In this document: piece after piece, positions 14,953-22,731 of the stretch
Layout of the letters: each line of letters begins with the position of its first letter
Position numbering within the stretch: the stretch's first letter is position 1
NCBI GenBank assembly: GCA_903918755.1
Contig: CAIXFN010000110.1
Coordinates: 62,001-126,000 of the forward strand
DNA length: 64,000 bases
Reading direction: 5' to 3'
DNA from: an uncultured Pedosphaera sp.
GTDB taxonomy: Bacteria > Verrucomicrobiota > Verrucomicrobiia > Limisphaerales > Pedosphaeraceae
The notes under the pieces: model-generated
The model's database searches: none
What the model saw: only the letters and a program-made list of their open reading frames with translations
What the model was told of the DNA's origin: nothing
Position numbers and translations under genes: made by a program

Positions 14953-15882
14953 TCAAACATTGGCGGCCAACTCCTTCAAACGGGCTCGAAAAGCCTGGAC
15001 GATCTCGCCCAACCAGGCGTTTTGGAACCGTTTCCGGATCGTGAGGGCATAATAGCGCTCCGTTAGTCCGGGCACCGGCAGCATGAACTTGATCTTGCTG
15101 GATTGCAGTTCCCGTTCCACCACGATTTTGGAGACCAATGCCAACCCTTCCCCCGATAAGGCCAGCAGCCGCAGCAAAGCCATATCGTCCACCTCGGCAT
15201 GAACGAAGGCCTCCACCCCGGCATCCGCCAACAGTAGTTCAAAATCCGCCCGGACATCGCTCTGGCGACTGGGAAGAAACAGGGGCACATCCTGCAGAAA
15301 CCTGGGAAATTCCGGCGGTGCTCCGGACCACTTTTTTCCGCCCACCAGGAATACCGGCACCTCACCGAGGAGATGATTGAAAACATTCTGTTCCTGGTCG
15401 CCCCGCAATGGAATGTTCGAAAGCACCAGATCGATTTTGTGCTCTTGCAACTGGCGCGTCAGGTCGTCCAGCGGTCCGGCCACCACCACCACTTTCGTCC
15501 GCGTATCTTTCAGAATGGGTTGGATGAAATCGAACTGGAGGTTTTTGGACAATGGGCCGACGGCTCCCAAACGCAGAACGCGCTGCCGCTTTTGATCGGA
15601 CTGCCGAAATCGTGTGATCAACTCGTGACCCGTGGCAAATATGGTCTCCGCATGCTCCAGCGCCACGCGTCCCGCCTCGGTGAGATGGAGTTGGCGACCC
15701 CGCCGGTCAAAAAGCGACTCCCCCAGCCACTCCTCCAATTCGGCGAGCTGCTCGCTCAAGGTGGATTGCGAGATTTTAAGTTTCTCGGCAGCGCGCGTGA
15801 CACTTTGCAGCCGCGCAATCATCCAGAAGTGTCGGAGGTGATGGTAGTTCAGCCATTCCGGGTTTTCAAACGCCGCATTCAT
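14953..15882 (-). CDS. LysR-family transcriptional regulator, NhaR-like
   Basis: 309 aa. The winged helix-turn-helix occupies residues 10-70 and is typical: LNYHHLRHFWMIARLQSVTR then AAEKLKISQSTLSEQLAELE. The LNYHHL.HFW opening is the signature of the NhaR branch. Residues 95-300 form the periplasmic-binding-like effector domain (VLRLGAVGPLSKNLQFDFI, VPVFLVGGKKWSG). It is divergent from the cysD-like/dabB/dabA operon with only 77 bp between, the usual arrangement for a LysR regulator and its target. Related LysR genes sit beside dab genes in other bacteria. The effector, perhaps CO2/bicarbonate or ion status, is unknown. Confidence 0.92.
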   Translation of the reverse strand: MNAAFENPEWLNYHHLRHFWMIARLQSVTRAAEKLKISQSTLSEQLAELEEWLGESLFDRRGRQLHLTEAGRVALEHAETIFATGHELITRFRQSDQKRQRVLRLGAVGPLSKNLQFDFIQPILKDTRTKVVVVAGPLDDLTRQLQEHKIDLVLSNIPLRGDQEQNVFNHLLGEVPVFLVGGKKWSGAPPEFPRFLQDVPLFLPSRQSDVRADFELLLADAGVEAFVHAEVDDMALLRLLALSGEGLALVSKIVVERELQSSKIKFMLPVPGLTERYYALTIRKRFQNAWLGEIVQAFRARLKELAANV

Positions 15883-15902
15883 TCCATCGGGATAACCGAA
15901 CG

Positions 15903-15922
15903 ATAGAATCGTAACAATCTAT
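15903..15922. promoter_or_regulatory. Candidate LysR operator between the regulator and the dab operon
   Basis: In the 77-bp divergent gap, ATAGA (15903-15907) and TCTAT (15918-15922) form an inverted repeat with a 10-bp spacer, ATCGTAACAA. It has the T-N11-A-like layout and location of LysR boxes. It is short, so chance cannot be excluded. Confidence 0.45.
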
Positions 15923-15959: not shown

Positions 15960-16928
15960 ATGAGCTTGCAAACTCGTCGCGGTCGGGCGGACCTGAATCC
16001 CGCGGCAGCACCAGCTCCGCTTAACAAAATGAACTCAGACCAAGCCAGTAAAAGTGGGTCAACGAGCAGGGATCCGGGGAGCGGCAGCCGGGAATTACCA
16101 GATTGCCCGCTCCAGCTGGACACTCTGTCCAAATTGGAAAACCGGAGCATTTACATCCTGCGGGAAGCTTTTCAGCACTTCGAGAAGATCGCCCTGCTCT
16201 GGAGTGTCGGCAAGGACTCCAACGTCATCCTGTGGCTCGTGCGCAAAGCTTTCTTCGGGCATGTCCCTTTCCCGCTGGTGCACCTCGATACCGGATACGA
16301 ACTTCCGGAACTGATCGCCTTCCGCGACCGGTTGGTAGCGGATTGGCATCTCAACCTGGTCGTGGCCCGCAATGAAGCGGTGCTGGCCGCCGGGACAACT
16401 TTTCCCAACGGAATACTAACCCGCGTCCAATGTTGCTCCCTGCTCAAAAAGGATGCCCTCAAGCAAACCCTGGACCGGCAGGGCTTTCGTGCCGTGATTG
16501 TGGGCGTTCGCCGGGACGAGGAACCCACGCGAGCCAAGGAGCGGATTTTCAGCCCCCGAACCGCGGCCATGGAATGGAACGTGGAGGACCAACCCCCGGA
16601 ATTTTGGGACCAGTTCAACACCGGCTTCCCCCGGGACGCCCACTTGCGGGTCCATCCCCTACTTGACTGGACGGAGACCAACATTTGGGAGTACATCGAG
16701 CGGGAGGGTATTCCGGTACCGGATCTTTATTTCGAACAAGGCAGTGGCGAGCGCTACCGTTCCCTCGGTTGTTGGCCCTGCACGGGCAAATTTGCCTCCC
16801 GAGCCCGCTCAGTAAGCGAAATCATCGCCGAACTCCGGAAAACGCGGATCGCGGAGCGGGCGGGACGCGCGCACGATCATGAATCCGAGGACGCCTTCGA
16901 AAAACTGCGGCGCGATGGTTTCATGTGA
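15960..16928 (+). CDS. CysD-like ATP pyrophosphatase (sulfate adenylyltransferase subunit 2 family)
   Basis: 322 aa. After a low-complexity N-terminal stretch of about 50 residues comes the family core: ENRSIYILREAFQHFEKIAL, the PP-loop SVGKDS (Ser82-Ser87), FPLVHLDTGYELPEL, GVRRDEEPTRAKERIFSPR and LGCWPCTGKFASRA. These match CysD, the ATP sulfurylase small subunit, and argue against CysH. The CysD segment between the WTE.NIWEYI and LGCWP motifs is shorter than in E. coli. No cysN (the GTPase partner) is nearby. Instead dabB and dabA follow 54 bp downstream, so this paralogue may work with the inorganic-carbon system or may simply be co-regulated. A later ATG at 16029 could be the true start. 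Confidence 0.82.
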   Translation: MSLQTRRGRADLNPAAAPAPLNKMNSDQASKSGSTSRDPGSGSRELPDCPLQLDTLSKLENRSIYILREAFQHFEKIALLWSVGKDSNVILWLVRKAFFGHVPFPLVHLDTGYELPELIAFRDRLVADWHLNLVVARNEAVLAAGTTFPNGILTRVQCCSLLKKDALKQTLDRQGFRAVIVGVRRDEEPTRAKERIFSPRTAAMEWNVEDQPPEFWDQFNTGFPRDAHLRVHPLLDWTETNIWEYIEREGIPVPDLYFEQGSGERYRSLGCWPCTGKFASRARSVSEIIAELRKTRIAERAGRAHDHESEDAFEKLRRDGFM

Positions 16929-16982
16929 GCAGGTGCCCGCAGTAAACATCCCGACACTCTCCCAACGCGTTTTGACAACCCC

Positions 16983-18605
16983 ATGAGCAACGAACCACCG
17001 CAAATCCTGATCGCCGGGCTAACCGCCGCCGGACCACTGACCCTATTGGCCTTTGGACTCCTGCCCGCCAAATGGCTCAACCATCATTCCCGGATCGCCG
17101 CGCACACTGTCGCCCAAATCTCCCTCACGACGCTGACTTTGACGCTCGCTGCGCTGGTAGCAAGGGTTTACGTGGGCACGGTGGATGTCCACTACAACGT
17201 GGCGGGACCGCTTCACCTCGGCGTGTATTGTGACAATCTTTCCGCCGTCGTGCTGACCTTGGTGGCCTTTTTGCTGGCCGTGGTGACGCGTTATTCCGTC
17301 CATTACCTCTCCGGCGACCCGGGGCAAGGAAGGTTCTCCAAGTGGCTTGGCCTCACCGGTGGATCCGTGCTGGCCATCGTGATTTCCGGCAACCTTATCC
17401 AATTTGCCCTGGCCTGGAGCGCCACCAGCTTGAGCCTCCACCAATTGCTCCTGTTCTATCCGGAACGCCCGGGTGCGGTCCTCGCTGCGCGGAAAAAATT
17501 CATCATCAGCCGGATGGGTGACGCCAGCCTTCTGGCGGTCATCGTTTTGGTGTTTCACAAGTTCCAAACCTGGGATTTCACAGGCATTTTTGCGGCCGCA
17601 AGGCAGTTGCACGCCTCGGGCCTGCCTTCCGACGCCGGGGACATCAGCGTGATTTGCTTTTTGCTGGTGGCGGGGGCAATGCTGAAATCCGCGCAGTTCC
17701 CCTTTCATAGTTGGTTGCCGGACACCATGGAAACACCCACGCCGGTATCCGCGCTGATGCACGCGGGCATCATCAACGCCGGGGGGTTCCTGATCATCCG
17801 ACTGAGCCCGCTGGTCACGCTGTCACCGGGAGCCATGTCCACCCTGGCTTTATTTGGCGCTTTCACCGCCCTGTTTGCTTCGTTGGTGATGCTTACCCAT
17901 GCGAGTGTGAAGCGGTCACTGGCTTTCTCCACCGTCGCCCAGATGGGGTTCATGATGCTGGAATGCGGCCTCGGCGCATTCGGCCTTGCCGTGCTGCACC
18001 TGGTAGCGCATTCCCTCTACAAAGCCCATGCCTTCCTCGCCTCCGGCAGCATTATCAGCGCGGCCAAATCCGCCTGGGCGCCGCCAGAAAGAGCGACTTC
18101 GGGCAGGTTGCCCCTGGTCGGCGCGTTCGTCATGGCCGGCGGAATGGCGCTGGGCGGTGCGTGGGTTTTCGGCCGGGATTACCGGCAGGAACCGGCGTCG
18201 CTGCTGCTGGGCTGTGCGTTTGTCATGGCCCTGGCCTACGCGTTGTGGAATCTGTGGAGCCGGTCGCTGAATCGCAAGCTGGCCGTGTTCGGCACCGCTT
18301 TGACAGGTGCAATTGTGGTGGTCTATTTCTGGTTGCACAAAATCTTTGACAGTGTGCTCGGGGAAAAGCCCTGGGAGAATACACAATTGCATTCCTGGCC
18401 GGGCCTGGTCTTGATGGCCACCTTGCTGCTGCTGTTCCTCTTTGTGCTCATCATTCAGACGGAACTACCCAATTGGGCGCACCGGCCCTTCTTCCAGACG
18501 GTCTATGTCCACGCGCGCAACGGATTCTATTTTAATACTCTGGCCAACCGCACCGTGACCGCGCTGTGGCCGGTGAAACATACCAATCATGAACCCAACC
18601 CTTGA
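16983..18605 (+). CDS. dabB: DabB/MpsA-type NuoL-like proton-translocating subunit of the DAB inorganic-carbon pump
   Basis: 540 aa polytopic membrane protein of the NuoL/MrpA family with about 14 hydrophobic segments. The key channel residues are present: AGAMLKSAQFPFHSWLPD followed by TMETPTPVSALMHAG in the middle helices, and VKRSLAFSTVAQMGFM and HLVAHSLYKAHAFL further on, each with the conserved Lys or His. It is the standalone NuoL-like type found in DAB systems (Halothiobacillus DabB, Staphylococcus MpsA), where it couples the ion gradient to CO2 hydration by DabA. Its 3' end overlaps the dabA start by 17 bp, which implies translational coupling. No other complex I genes are near. Confidence 0.9.
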   Translation: MSNEPPQILIAGLTAAGPLTLLAFGLLPAKWLNHHSRIAAHTVAQISLTTLTLTLAALVARVYVGTVDVHYNVAGPLHLGVYCDNLSAVVLTLVAFLLAVVTRYSVHYLSGDPGQGRFSKWLGLTGGSVLAIVISGNLIQFALAWSATSLSLHQLLLFYPERPGAVLAARKKFIISRMGDASLLAVIVLVFHKFQTWDFTGIFAAARQLHASGLPSDAGDISVICFLLVAGAMLKSAQFPFHSWLPDTMETPTPVSALMHAGIINAGGFLIIRLSPLVTLSPGAMSTLALFGAFTALFASLVMLTHASVKRSLAFSTVAQMGFMMLECGLGAFGLAVLHLVAHSLYKAHAFLASGSIISAAKSAWAPPERATSGRLPLVGAFVMAGGMALGGAWVFGRDYRQEPASLLLGCAFVMALAYALWNLWSRSLNRKLAVFGTALTGAIVVVYFWLHKIFDSVLGEKPWENTQLHSWPGLVLMATLLLLFLFVLIIQTELPNWAHRPFFQTVYVHARNGFYFNTLANRTVTALWPVKHTNHEPNP

Positions 18606-21129
18606 AACCGCCATGGTGGAACTGAACCAGTCACTGCGTGACACCGTCCAGTCCGTCGGTCAGCGCATCCCGCCGCTGTGGTCGTTAAGAAACTTCGTCG
18701 CCGTAAATCCATTCCTCGGCTTGCGAGATCGGCATTTCCTGGACGCCGCGCGACTGATGCAGCGCGTAGGGCACGGCGACATCCTCATGCCGGCAGCATA
18801 TTATCAGGAACAAATCGCCTCCGGCCGGATTCAGGAACGGGATTTCGCGGCGGCCATGGAACTGGCCCCGCAAACTTTGCCGACCGAATGGGCACAGGCA
18901 GTTGATTTCCGGGGATTCCACGACTGGCAGCGCGCGCTGGCCAGGCCCCCGGCGGACCCGAGCGTGGCCCGGGTGCTGACCTTTGCGGATTTTTTGGACA
19001 CCCGGACGGGAAGCGCGTGGGCGGGATTGGTGGTCGAGGAAATATCCAAGTGGTGCTCGGCGTATTTCGATCAGGGGCAATCTTCCTGGCGGATGCCGTG
19101 GCGACACCTGAACTTGTTCGCCGCTTGGAAGGCCGCCGCCCAACTCGATGCCAATCCCGAATTGTTGGGTTTAAAGGATTTCCGGCGAATGGTGGCGGAA
19201 TTGCCCGCTGACCATTGGGAAGTAATCGACGGGGCATTGGACAAATTGGCCGTGCCGGAACGGCTGCTGCCGGACTTTCTCCATCGGCAATTCCTGAGCC
19301 TCCCGGGCTGGAGCAGCTACGTGCAAAATGTAGTGCGGGGTAAAGCCGGGGACGCTCCGGGCGACGATTCCCTGGCGCAATTACTCGCCATCCGACTGGG
19401 GTACGATCTCGCGCTGCGGCAACAGTTGGGGAGCGACAGCCACACCCACGCCGATTGGGAAAGCCATTTGGCAGGCCTCGCCAGTGCCGAGGCGGCGATC
19501 AACCCCGACCTGCTCGCCCGTTACATAGCCCAACAGGCTTTGGAATGCGGCTTTCAAAGGGAATTGCTGGCCAAGCTCAAAGGCCAGTCCGACCCGGCCA
19601 AAGTTGCCAACCGGAAATCCTTGCAGGCGATTTTTTGTATCGATGTGCGGTCGGAAGTGTTTCGGCGGGTCCTGGAAGCGCAGTCGGAGGAGATCGAGAC
19701 CCTCGGATTTGCCGGGTTCTTTGGCATGCCCATTGAGTATTTGAAATTCGGCCAGGCCAGTGGCGGCGCGCATTGCCCGGTCTTACTCTCACCGAAATAT
19801 AGGGTGCGCGAAGCGCTCCGACCGACCGTAGCCGGTGACGAAGGCCGGTGGTTGCGCCGGCTCGGTTTTTGGCGGACGGTGAGCGACGCTTGGAACTCAT
19901 TCAAGACCTCGGCGATCTCATGCTTCTCTTTCGTCGAAACGGCGGGACTTTGGTTTGGTGTCAAATTAGTCAAAGATTCCCTCGCCCTGGCCGCGCCGGA
20001 ATCCGATTTTATGCCGGGTAGGGTACCCTCGCGGTTTGGCCCGAAGATCGAGCGCGAGGTTTGCTGCGCCACCGAACACGGCCACGACTCCGCAACGGGG
20101 ATTCCGCTCCCTGACCAAATCAGCCTGGCCGCCGGCGCGCTCAAGAACATGGGACTCACCGCCAACTTCGCCAGCGTGGTTTTGATCTGCGGTCACGGCA
20201 GCACCACGACGAACAATCCCTATGGATCGGCCCTCGATTGCGGCGCATGCGGGGGGCATGCCGGTGACGCCAACGCGCGCGTGGCGGCGGCGATTCTAAA
20301 TCAGCCAGCCGTGCGCGCCGCCTTGCGACAGCAGGGAATTGAAATTCCCGCGGACACCTGGTTTGTCGCCGGATTGCATAATACCACCACCGATGAAATT
20401 CAGTGTTACGAGGGGGACAAGCTTACCGCGCCGCAGCGGACGGAGTTGGCCAAAATCAAAGCCTGGCTGGCGGCCGCTGGGATCCAGGCCCGCCAGGAGC
20501 GCGCGGCTTCCCTGGGTCTGGGGGGCGTGCCCCCGGCGCAATTGGCGGAGAAGGTATTCCAGCGCAGCCGCGATTGGGCGCAGGTGCGGCCGGAATGGGG
20601 CCTGGCGGGTAATGCCGCGTTCGTGGCCGCGCCGCGCCCACGAACCCAGGGCCGGAATCTCGGCGGCCGGGTCTTCCTGCACAATTACGAGGCCCGTTTG
20701 GACGTCGACCACACGGTCGCGGAACTCATCCTGTTGGCCCCGATGGTCGTGGCCAGTTGGATTAACCTGCAATACTATGGCTCCACCGTAAACAACCGGT
20801 TGTTCGGCAGCGGAAACAAGGTCCTTCACAACCTGGTCGGCACCTTCGGCGTCTGGCAGGGAAACGGCGGCGATTTGCAGTCCGGACTCCCGCTGCAATC
20901 CCTGCATGACGGTGCCCAATGGGTGCATGAGCCGTTGCGCCTGAGCGTTTTCATCGAGGCGAATCCGACCGTGCTCCGGGACCTCCTCGCGCGGCACCGG
21001 GACGTCCGGCAATTGGTGGCCAATGGCTGGGTGCATCTGTTTGCGATGGATCCCTCCGACCAGAGATTTTGGCGGTTTTGCGGCGATTCCTTTCGCGAGG
21101 AAACGTCCCCTTGCGACAATCCGGCCTAG
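18589..21129 (+). CDS. dabA: DabA (DUF2309/UPF0753) carbonic-anhydrase-like subunit of the DAB pump
   Basis: 846 aa, the usual size. The beta-carbonic-anhydrase-like zinc site is complete: FCIDVRSEVF contains C350 and D352, and ICGHGSTTTN ... LDCGACGG contains H536 and C551. The H-to-C spacing of 15 equals that of Halothiobacillus DabA (H524/C539). The N-terminus has the conserved PPLWSLRNFVAVNPFLGL. By family knowledge DabA hydrates CO2 to bicarbonate unidirectionally on the cytoplasmic side, energised by DabB. In heterotrophs such systems feed carboxylation reactions under low CO2. No Rubisco or carboxysome gene is seen here. ATG 18589 overlaps dabB. Confidence 0.96.
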   Translation: MNPTLETAMVELNQSLRDTVQSVGQRIPPLWSLRNFVAVNPFLGLRDRHFLDAARLMQRVGHGDILMPAAYYQEQIASGRIQERDFAAAMELAPQTLPTEWAQAVDFRGFHDWQRALARPPADPSVARVLTFADFLDTRTGSAWAGLVVEEISKWCSAYFDQGQSSWRMPWRHLNLFAAWKAAAQLDANPELLGLKDFRRMVAELPADHWEVIDGALDKLAVPERLLPDFLHRQFLSLPGWSSYVQNVVRGKAGDAPGDDSLAQLLAIRLGYDLALRQQLGSDSHTHADWESHLAGLASAEAAINPDLLARYIAQQALECGFQRELLAKLKGQSDPAKVANRKSLQAIFCIDVRSEVFRRVLEAQSEEIETLGFAGFFGMPIEYLKFGQASGGAHCPVLLSPKYRVREALRPTVAGDEGRWLRRLGFWRTVSDAWNSFKTSAISCFSFVETAGLWFGVKLVKDSLALAAPESDFMPGRVPSRFGPKIEREVCCATEHGHDSATGIPLPDQISLAAGALKNMGLTANFASVVLICGHGSTTTNNPYGSALDCGACGGHAGDANARVAAAILNQPAVRAALRQQGIEIPADTWFVAGLHNTTTDEIQCYEGDKLTAPQRTELAKIKAWLAAAGIQARQERAASLGLGGVPPAQLAEKVFQRSRDWAQVRPEWGLAGNAAFVAAPRPRTQGRNLGGRVFLHNYEARLDVDHTVAELILLAPMVVASWINLQYYGSTVNNRLFGSGNKVLHNLVGTFGVWQGNGGDLQSGLPLQSLHDGAQWVHEPLRLSVFIEANPTVLRDLLARHRDVRQLVANGWVHLFAMDPSDQRFWRFCGDSFREETSPCDNPA

Positions 21130-21201: not shown

Positions 21202-21211
21202 TTGCGTGACC

Positions 21212-21367
21212 GCCGATGCTCCAAGCCGGGGAAGCTGACTCGTTCAGACTTCTTCTCTCCGGGGTTACCCCGGGGCAACTCGACAGTCACCCGTAACATC
21301 GCGCGAGCGACTCTGCGCTATCCTCGCAGGGACGCTCACGCACGACCAGACGCGTTGGAGCATCGGC
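21212..21367 (+). ncRNA. Candidate retron msr-msd noncoding RNA
   Basis: The RNA is bounded by a perfect 13-bp inverted repeat: a1 GCCGATGCTCCAA (21212-21224) and a2 TTGGAGCATCGGC (21355-21367), the hallmark pair of retrons. The base after a1 is G21225 in AAGC, where the branching guanosine is expected. The msr part has a hairpin CCGGGG-TTA-CCCCGG (21259-21273) enclosed by TGACT/AGTCA (21236-21240 with 21285-21289) and GTT/AAC. The msd part is a long hairpin at 21301-21341: GAGCG/CGCTC outside and CTGCG/CGCAG inside with a 7-nt loop. The a2 arm ends 14 nt before the RT start codon. Order and spacing match known retrons. The exact RNA ends and the msDNA length (perhaps 60-75 nt) are inferred. 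Confidence 0.82.
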
Positions 21368-21381
21368 CGGTCATTGGGGTA

Positions 21382-22731
21382 ATGAAACCGCGGCAACAAC
21401 TGGCGGGCCTGCTCGCCGAGACAATGCTGGCCGGCCACCTGGAAGAGGCCGGCCTGGTGGATCGCGCCGCTGCGATCCTTGAGCGCCGCCCCCGTTGGTT
21501 GCGCCCCATGGTCCGCCGCCTCCTCGCGCACTTTGGCCCCGGCCGTCGCCCGCGCCGATTCCGCCTGGAAAGGTTCATTGCCGCCGACCAGGGATTCGCC
21601 GGGGATGTCCTTAAGTTTAAATCATGTTGCCATCCCAACCGCGACGTCCGCCCCCAGATGGTTCCCGCCCTCGGCCCGCCGTGCTCCTGGCCGCTCCCGC
21701 CCCTCTGCACCCCGGGCGAACTGGCGCGCTGGCTGAACCTGGATCTGAATGAACTGTTCTGGTTTGCCGACCTTCGCACTCTGGAGGGCCAATTACCCCC
21801 CGGACCGCTGCGCCATTATCATTACCGTTGGCTGGCGAAACGCGACGGCAGCGCGCGTCTCATCGAATCCCCCAAGCAACGATTAAAGGCTATTCAGCGC
21901 CACCTGCTCACCCGGATTCTGGACCAGATCCCGCCCCATGAGGCGGCCCATGGATTCCGCGTGGGCCACTCCGTGGGCAGTTTCGTCGCCCCCCATGTCC
22001 ATCAGGCCATGGTGCTGCGATTGGATCTGCAGGATTTTTTTCCCACGATCACGCGAGCCCGCATCCTGGCTATTTTTCTGACCGCCGGCTACCCCGAGCC
22101 GGTCGCCGCCCTCCTTGCCGGGTTGTGCACCAACACGAGCCCGCGGACGGTGCTGGCCGGCTTTTCCAGTTCGCCTACCGCCGCCGTCGGCCGTTCGTTG
22201 GAACTTATCTATCGTCGCCCTCACCTTCCTCAAGGGGCGCCCACCTCCCCCGCGCTGGCTAACCTGGCCGCCTACCGGCTCGATTGCCGTCTGGCCGGGT
22301 ATGCCCGGGCGGCGGGAGCGTGCTACACGCGCTACGCCGACGATCTGGTCTTCTCCGGGGGACCGGAGTTCGCCCGCGGCGTCGAACGCTTTTACATTCG
22401 CGTCGCCGCGATCGTGCTCGAGGAGGGCTTTGCGGTCCACACCCGCAAAACCCGCATCATGCCGCCGTCGGTGTCCCAGCGCGCCGCGGGGATCGTGCTC
22501 AATGCGCATCCCAATCTCCCCCGTCCCGCTTTCGACGAACTCAAAGCCACGCTGCACAACTGCGTCCGTCATGGCCCGGCCGGTCAAAACCGGGCGGGAT
22601 TGCCCGATTTTCACGCGCACCTCGCAGGCCGGATCGCCCACTGGGAATCGATCAACCCCGCTCGCGGTCAAAAACTGCGCCGGGAATTTGACCGGATCGT
22701 CTGGCCGGCGGATCCCGCGGGCGGAAGTTGA
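21382..22731 (+). CDS. Retron-type reverse transcriptase (myxobacterial-like)
   Basis: 449 aa from ATG 21382, 14 nt after the a2 arm. Residues 1-150 are an extra N-terminal region, as in myxobacterial retron RTs. The RT core follows: LFWFADLRTLEG, HYRWLAKRDGSARLIESPKQ, AAHGFRVGHSVGSF, motif A RLDLQDFFPTIT (D215), LPQGAPTSPALANL (282-295), YADDLVFSG (Y318-D321) and the thumb-side FDELKATLHNCVRHGP. The conserved retron VTG triplet appears here as AAG (368-370) in QRAAGIVLNAHPN. It would reverse-transcribe the adjacent RNA into branched msDNA. No effector gene is recognisable on either side. Group II intron maturase domains are absent. The frame is open upstream through the RNA, but that part is not expected to be translated. 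Confidence 0.9.
   Translation: MKPRQQLAGLLAETMLAGHLEEAGLVDRAAAILERRPRWLRPMVRRLLAHFGPGRRPRRFRLERFIAADQGFAGDVLKFKSCCHPNRDVRPQMVPALGPPCSWPLPPLCTPGELARWLNLDLNELFWFADLRTLEGQLPPGPLRHYHYRWLAKRDGSARLIESPKQRLKAIQRHLLTRILDQIPPHEAAHGFRVGHSVGSFVAPHVHQAMVLRLDLQDFFPTITRARILAIFLTAGYPEPVAALLAGLCTNTSPRTVLAGFSSSPTAAVGRSLELIYRRPHLPQGAPTSPALANLAAYRLDCRLAGYARAAGACYTRYADDLVFSGGPEFARGVERFYIRVAAIVLEEGFAVHTRKTRIMPPSVSQRAAGIVLNAHPNLPRPAFDELKATLHNCVRHGPAGQNRAGLPDFHAHLAGRIAHWESINPARGQKLRREFDRIVWPADPAGGS

Follow-up and report, generated by a model that had tools for sequence, protein, structure and literature searches.

The window analyzed here, a stretch of 64,000 nucleotides from a contig of an uncultured Pedosphaera sp., contains an operon whose first gene (15960–16928, forward strand) codes for an orphan CysD-like small subunit of sulfate adenylyltransferase of 322 aa. 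It is followed by dabB (16983–18605, forward strand), which codes for a proton channel subunit of the NuoL/Mrp type (Proton_antipo_M, 156.5 bits), and by dabA (18589–21129, forward strand), which codes for a zinc subunit resembling beta-carbonic anhydrases (PF10070, 869.6 bits); dabB and dabA overlap by 17 bp. A LysR-family regulator with Pfam HTH_1 and LysR_substrate domains is encoded divergently from the operon (14953–15882, reverse strand). A preliminary description had placed a CysD-like gene directly before dabB and dabA at a locus lacking cysN, and both points are borne out by the open reading frames and by the absence of any cysN near the dab operon.

The pairing of a PF10070 DabA with an adjoining Proton_antipo_M subunit identifies the two downstream genes as DabAB. 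Alignment to H. neapolitanus DabA2 (9rd0) shows that the window DabA keeps the zinc ligands C350, H536 and C551 together with the Asp-Arg dyad D352 and R354, in agreement with the earlier statement that the zinc site is complete. The zinc site of H. neapolitanus DAB2 is given in passages of PMC13144422 as Cys351, His524 and Cys539, with Asp353-Arg355, such that C350 corresponds to C351, D352 to D353, R354 to R355, H536 to H524, and C551 to C539. The window LysR is 81–85% identical to the LysR proteins in the same place at five related loci (L059, L063, L082, L083 and L119), and DabB is 64–70% identical to the DabB proteins of sister dab loci. A retron-like reverse transcriptase gene with a TTG start (21202–22731) begins 72 bp after dabA; PADLOC reports it as RT_other/RT_outgroup, and its NCBIfam retron St85 match is below cut-off.

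A conserved element between lysR and the operon

Between lysR and the first operon gene lies a 21 bp element, ATCGGGATAACCGAACGATAG (15886–15906, forward strand), a candidate LysR site or promoter that is kept in six related LysR-dab intergenic regions and has the form ATCGG(A/G)ATAACCGAACGATAG across loci. It is present in the window and in L119, L059, L063, L082, L083 and L084 (L063 and L084 being the same contig), with a few mismatches in L119, L082 and L083, and has no second copy in the 64 kb window. These loci include operons with and without cysD, and the element precedes cysD where that gene is present and dabB where it is absent; in the window, cysD is thus flanked by a conserved control site on one side and dabB on the other. 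This arrangement supports the earlier proposal that cysD and the dab genes are co-regulated, and LysR presumably binds at the element. Scans for sigma-70 promoters and terminators gave signals no better than those of shuffled sequences.

The CysD-like protein

The window protein belongs to the CysD subfamily by its NCBIfam PRK05253 score (343.3 bits, cut-off 195), matches the Pfam PAPS_reduct domain, and scores below cut-off with TIGR02039 (259.7 against 396.6). The solved structure that matches it best is P. syringae CysD (1zun), which is also the nearest fold to its AlphaFold model, and residues 1–50 form an extension without conservation. The PP-loop S82-VGKD-S87 and the motif G270-CWPCT-G276, both pointed out previously, are present. 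Positions that are invariant in CysD (PP-loop, RRDEE, AKER, QxPE and others) are retained in the dab-linked proteins, with the exception of those of L109, L110 and L114, and the window CysD is catalytically intact as judged by its active-site residues. The three exceptions, all from MAGs, have catalytic-loop changes (R to C and K to E, for example) and are possibly drifting out of function.

A cysteine pair overlooked in the preliminary description, C158-C159, makes up with C271 and C274 the four-cysteine set of APS reductases, with the CC...CxxC pattern of the [4Fe-4S] cluster type, and all four align with cysteines of M. tuberculosis APS reductase (7lhr). An identity as a CysH-like APS reductase could be argued from these residues but is hardly credible, as the protein ends in KLRRDGFM and lacks the C-terminal catalytic cysteine of ECG(I/L)H, CysH models score far below cut-off (TIGR02055, 61.9 vs 235.3), the nearest fold is 1zun, and the CysN-linked CysDs of the order have the same four cysteines.

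We had also considered the four cysteines as a dab-specific trait, and this is rejected on the latter grounds. Both CysDs encoded in this genome, that of the window and a CysN-linked one on contig C14, carry CC...GCxPCT, and the four cysteines are therefore typical of the CysDs of the order, whether cysN-linked or not. That the canonical CysN-linked CysD of the order (L004, G000:C14:10000-29000) has four cysteines of the APS reductase type suggests a CysD subfamily with a putative [4Fe-4S] cluster.

Other sulfur genes of the genome

Since a complete sir-cysH-cysD-cysNC operon is located on contig C14 of the same genome, the window CysD is an orphan paralogue; it is 67–68% identical to the C14 CysD. 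CysN is the usual partner of CysD, and none is encoded alongside the window CysD; genome-wide, the sole CysN match above cut-off is the CysNC of C14, whose gene is grouped with its own cysD, cysH and sir. The preliminary description had raised the prospect of a canonical cysDN elsewhere in the genome and of a distant cysN that requires the window cysD; the former exists, as cysD-cysNC on C14, and the latter objection fails, this cysNC adjoining a cysD of its own.

Among the dab-cysD genomes checked, PP-loop genes (PF01507) are present in 19/19, numbering 2 to 5 in 18 of the 19, and CysN is present in 18/19, either elsewhere or beside the dab-linked CysD. A dab-linked cysD usually has no cysN near it; the exceptions are two kinds of dab loci (L098/L099 and L154), from Methylomonas and a Pirellulaceae genome, which include a cysN. 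A common loss of the CysN-binding surface in the orphan clades was considered and rejected, the lost conserved positions overlapping only weakly (p values of 0.007, 0.045 and 0.24).

Distribution of dab-linked cysD genes

The DabA group, used for a genome-wide scan, yielded 80 loci. When all neighboring ORFs were clustered, with no preselection of families, CysD emerged as the commonest family after dabA, dabB and LysR, in 16 of 74 non-redundant loci, which is no rate for dab operons generally because the 80 loci were selected for likeness to the window DabA; the runners-up are DUF6671 (13 loci) and PurK/PurE (5 loci). Of the 73 loci in which the DNA extends 1 kb or more beyond dabA, 20 have CysD close to dab. 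The dab-cysD loci are found in Verrucomicrobiota, Acidobacteriota, Pseudomonadota and Planctomycetota, and the survey of dab operons for CysD without cysN, suggested in the preliminary description, thus speaks against the linkage being unconserved. The linkage is a minority trait and concerns few dab operons in unbiased samples: among 30 dab loci each from Alphaproteobacteria and Gammaproteobacteria, cysD is present in 2 and 1, respectively, with the centre genome of each sample counted, and three intact dab-linked copies are present among 320 genomes of the order (in the window, in the genome of L119, and in G019).

In the window and in L119, cysD precedes dabB; elsewhere, as in G019, it lies downstream of dabA, with bioD-ccr between the two in L145. 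A plasmid of Mesorhizobium sp. INR15 carries LysR, HAD, dabB, dabA, cysD and DUF6671 in its deposited annotation, an M. terrae plasmid is a further named example with deposited annotation, and plasmid pGW6_1 of Methylocystis rosea GW6 carries LysR, dabB, dabA, bioD, ccrA, cysD and bioA. On Mesorhizobium plasmids, including that of INR15, dabA and cysD overlap by 4 bp. Such overlaps, and the usual location of cysD directly after dabA, which is the place of a PII gene in another clade of ybcC (dabA) operons described in passages of PMC5700660, would suit a CysD that partners DabAB in a regulatory or structural capacity, for instance as a gating subunit of the pump that senses adenine nucleotides, a part that PII-type proteins may play in other dab operons. 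We consider this distinctly unlikely, given that the catalytic residues are conserved, that the position of cysD varies among loci, that most dab operons lack it, and that one locus (L250) has cysD without dab genes.

No DabA was found in the sampled relatives of the same family, and the window dab cassette, whose relatives occur on plasmids, may therefore have moved horizontally.

Genes accompanying dab and cysD

Other passengers of dab operons are PurK-PurE, BioD, Ccr and Sua5/TsaC. PurK-PurE, dethiobiotin synthase (BioD), crotonyl-CoA carboxylase/reductase (Ccr) and Sua5/TsaC use CO2 or bicarbonate, and the passengers besides CysD are thus mostly users of these substrates, ilvD and bioA falling outside the pattern. 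The earlier proposal of a new role for the CysD-like protein in carbon or sulfur supply consequently stands in part: context (purEK, bioD, ccr, Sua5) supports a tie to inorganic carbon; the protein keeps the sulfate adenylyltransferase catalytic residues intact, and a new biochemical function is at most a possibility. In M. rosea a LysR-ccr-cysD unit lacks dab genes and has the same kind of LysR (L250), and CysD therefore seems to be part of a CO2-related LysR module rather than of dab alone.

Several further associations were observed. DUF6671 is a second recurrent gene of dab operons, with or without cysD (L104, L109, L120, L121, L131, L293 and L295; also L296-L299), and in Arthrobacter sp. 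U41 it adjoins a sodium-dependent bicarbonate permease. The dihydroxy-acid dehydratase gene ilvD is located after DUF6671 in a dab operon of Fuscovulum and also at the Arthrobacter locus with the bicarbonate permease (L298, L296), and Sua5/TsaC (L-threonylcarbamoyladenylate synthase) is found in dab neighborhoods of Nocardia and a Lysobacterales MAG (L299; L129:7504-8658).

The company of carboxylation genes raises the main alternative, that the orphan CysD has a changed substrate and adenylylates bicarbonate or a carbamate with release of PPi, which would add it to the CO2-using enzymes that the operon encodes. The gene is accompanied by purE-purK in L058 and L108 and by bioD-ccr-bioA in L145 and L294, it follows ccr where dab is missing, and most such operons are without CysN. 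Moreover, residue 114, which adjoins the DT(G/T) motif, is acidic (E/D) in 18 of 18 K-type proteins linked to dab or ccr but K in 52 of 53 other, canonical K-type CysDs, this position having been chosen post hoc. On the tree the change from K114 to an acidic residue amounts to only two independent switches, for which a sign test is not significant, and in clade 2 the residue is N in dab-linked and non-linked members alike; we therefore take the switch as a lead and not as proof. Together with the retention of the conserved CysD catalytic residues and the presence of cysN in two kinds of dab loci, this leaves a change of substrate unlikely. As an exception to the pattern, an E114 CysD is encoded beside a transport operon with neither CysN nor Dab near (L292/L075, L292 being G467).

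Origins, selection and loss

Dab-linked CysDs occupy at least three places on a maximum-likelihood tree, namely within a verrucomicrobial four-cysteine type, within a type that Acidobacteria and Methylomonas have in common, and in a proteobacterial clade. The starred branches of the CysD tree force four label changes, and a single clade of all dab-linked CysDs is rejected (p-AU 2.8e-54). These placements argue that CysD has been recruited into dab operons at least three separate times. L154 and L249 had been considered as extra independent recruitments with convergent K114E/D, and these were dropped with a larger tree, in which L249 groups with the proteobacterial clade and the placement of L154 beside that clade is unsettled; what is left of the claim is a minimum of three lineages, with two K114 switches.

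Within the relatives of the window operon, L119 (Verrucomicrobiales UBA11320) has the same order of LysR, cysD, dabB and dabA, with 86% identity in the CysD core and 58% in DabA. The two cysD genes differ by a dN of 0.09 and a dS of 2.1, with dN/dS of about 0.04–0.07, and the window cysD is thus under strong purifying selection. In L059 (Verrucomicrobia RH-18aug17-364) the interval between LysR and dabB holds a cysD pseudogene without PP-loop or cysteines, and cysD is absent from L063; cysD is therefore probably ancestral to part of the group, and loss of it does occur. A duplicated cysD that came to lie beside dab genes by chance, with no functional link, would account for the rarity of the linkage in unbiased samples, the pseudogene of L059 and the relatives on plasmids. 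This explanation is improbable and already disfavored by the presence of the gene in 16 of the 74 non-redundant loci and in three or more lineages, by the selection acting on it, and by the tight operon overlaps.

A proposed role for the orphan CysD

Our preferred reading, to which we assign a probability of about 0.42, is that this is a low-CO2 Dab operon controlled by LysR, in which a second CysD provides an alternative sulfate adenylyltransferase subunit that uses CysN(C) in trans. LysR would induce the operon under CO2 scarcity, and DabAB would draw on the proton gradient to convert CO2 into bicarbonate trapped in the cytosol. The second CysD would then be available as an alternative to the regular catalytic subunit of sulfate adenylyltransferase, pairing with CysN(C) made elsewhere; the window protein is probably an isoenzyme that works in this way in a bicarbonate-rich cytosol. 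Bicarbonate might be a troublesome ligand of CysD, in which case the cell could profit from an isoenzyme able to tolerate, or discriminate against, the high bicarbonate levels that Dab produces. CysD would be recruited alone, with its active site intact, because CysD and not CysN holds the oxyanion site. In favor of this reading are the frequency of CysD among the loci, its repeated recruitment, the CysN of 18 of the 19 genomes, the retained catalytic residues, the purifying selection, the common upstream element, the plasmid overlaps and the CO2-using passengers, whereas the minority status of the linkage and its loss in L059 and L063 speak against it.

A more radical view is that dab-linked CysDs are independent of CysN and that low-CO2 regulons have drawn them several times from sulfate adenylyltransferase, either as CO2-responsive adenylyltransferases for the activation of bicarbonate or a carbamate or as ones driven by DabAB; we hold this to be unlikely. 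The repeated independent entry of CysD into dab operons points to a previously undescribed link between CO2 limitation and CysD. If bicarbonate-pumping cells need a sulfate-activating subunit of their own, or have turned CysD to the use of CO2, then CO2 supply and sulfur assimilation would be connected in a manner new to the literature searched. A low-CO2 phenotype is predicted for a gene annotated as a routine cysD, DUF6671 is flagged as a second, uncharacterized member of the same module, and the idea is open to testing in named strains whose plasmids are sequenced (Mesorhizobium sp. INR15, M. terrae and Methylocystis rosea GW6).

Comparison with known systems

Dab and CysD are each known, and an orphan CysD as a recurrent dab-operon member was not found in the full-text literature searched. 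This search, outside which most subscription papers lie, found no paper that connects DabA or DUF2309 to CysD or to sulfate adenylyltransferase, and a search of titles and abstracts for bicarbonate acting on ATP sulfurylase gave nothing usable. The window operon resembles the DabAB/MpsAB systems, energy-coupled accumulators of inorganic carbon (H. neapolitanus DAB2, S. aureus MpsAB), in its dabB-dabA pair and its zinc and Asp-Arg site, and its divergent LysR is as in 'clade A' in the passages of PMC5700660, but it begins with an orphan cysD, on which the dab/mps literature passages are silent. Like the CysD of P. syringae CysDN (1zun), the window protein has the CysD fold, PP-loop and conserved catalytic residues; it differs in lacking an adjacent cysN, with a separate cysDNC in the genome, in having an acidic residue rather than K at position 114, and in the four APS-reductase-type cysteines common to the canonical CysDs of its order. 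Related verrucomicrobial LysR-dabB-dabA-purK-purE operons (L079, L082) share the regulator and dab genes, and L082 also the upstream element, although their passenger is purK-purE where the window has cysD. Finally, the LysR-dabB-dabA-bioD-ccr-cysD-bioA operon of M. rosea GW6 pGW6_1 likewise unites LysR, dabBA and cysD, but its CysD is of the E. coli type and lies among carboxylase genes.
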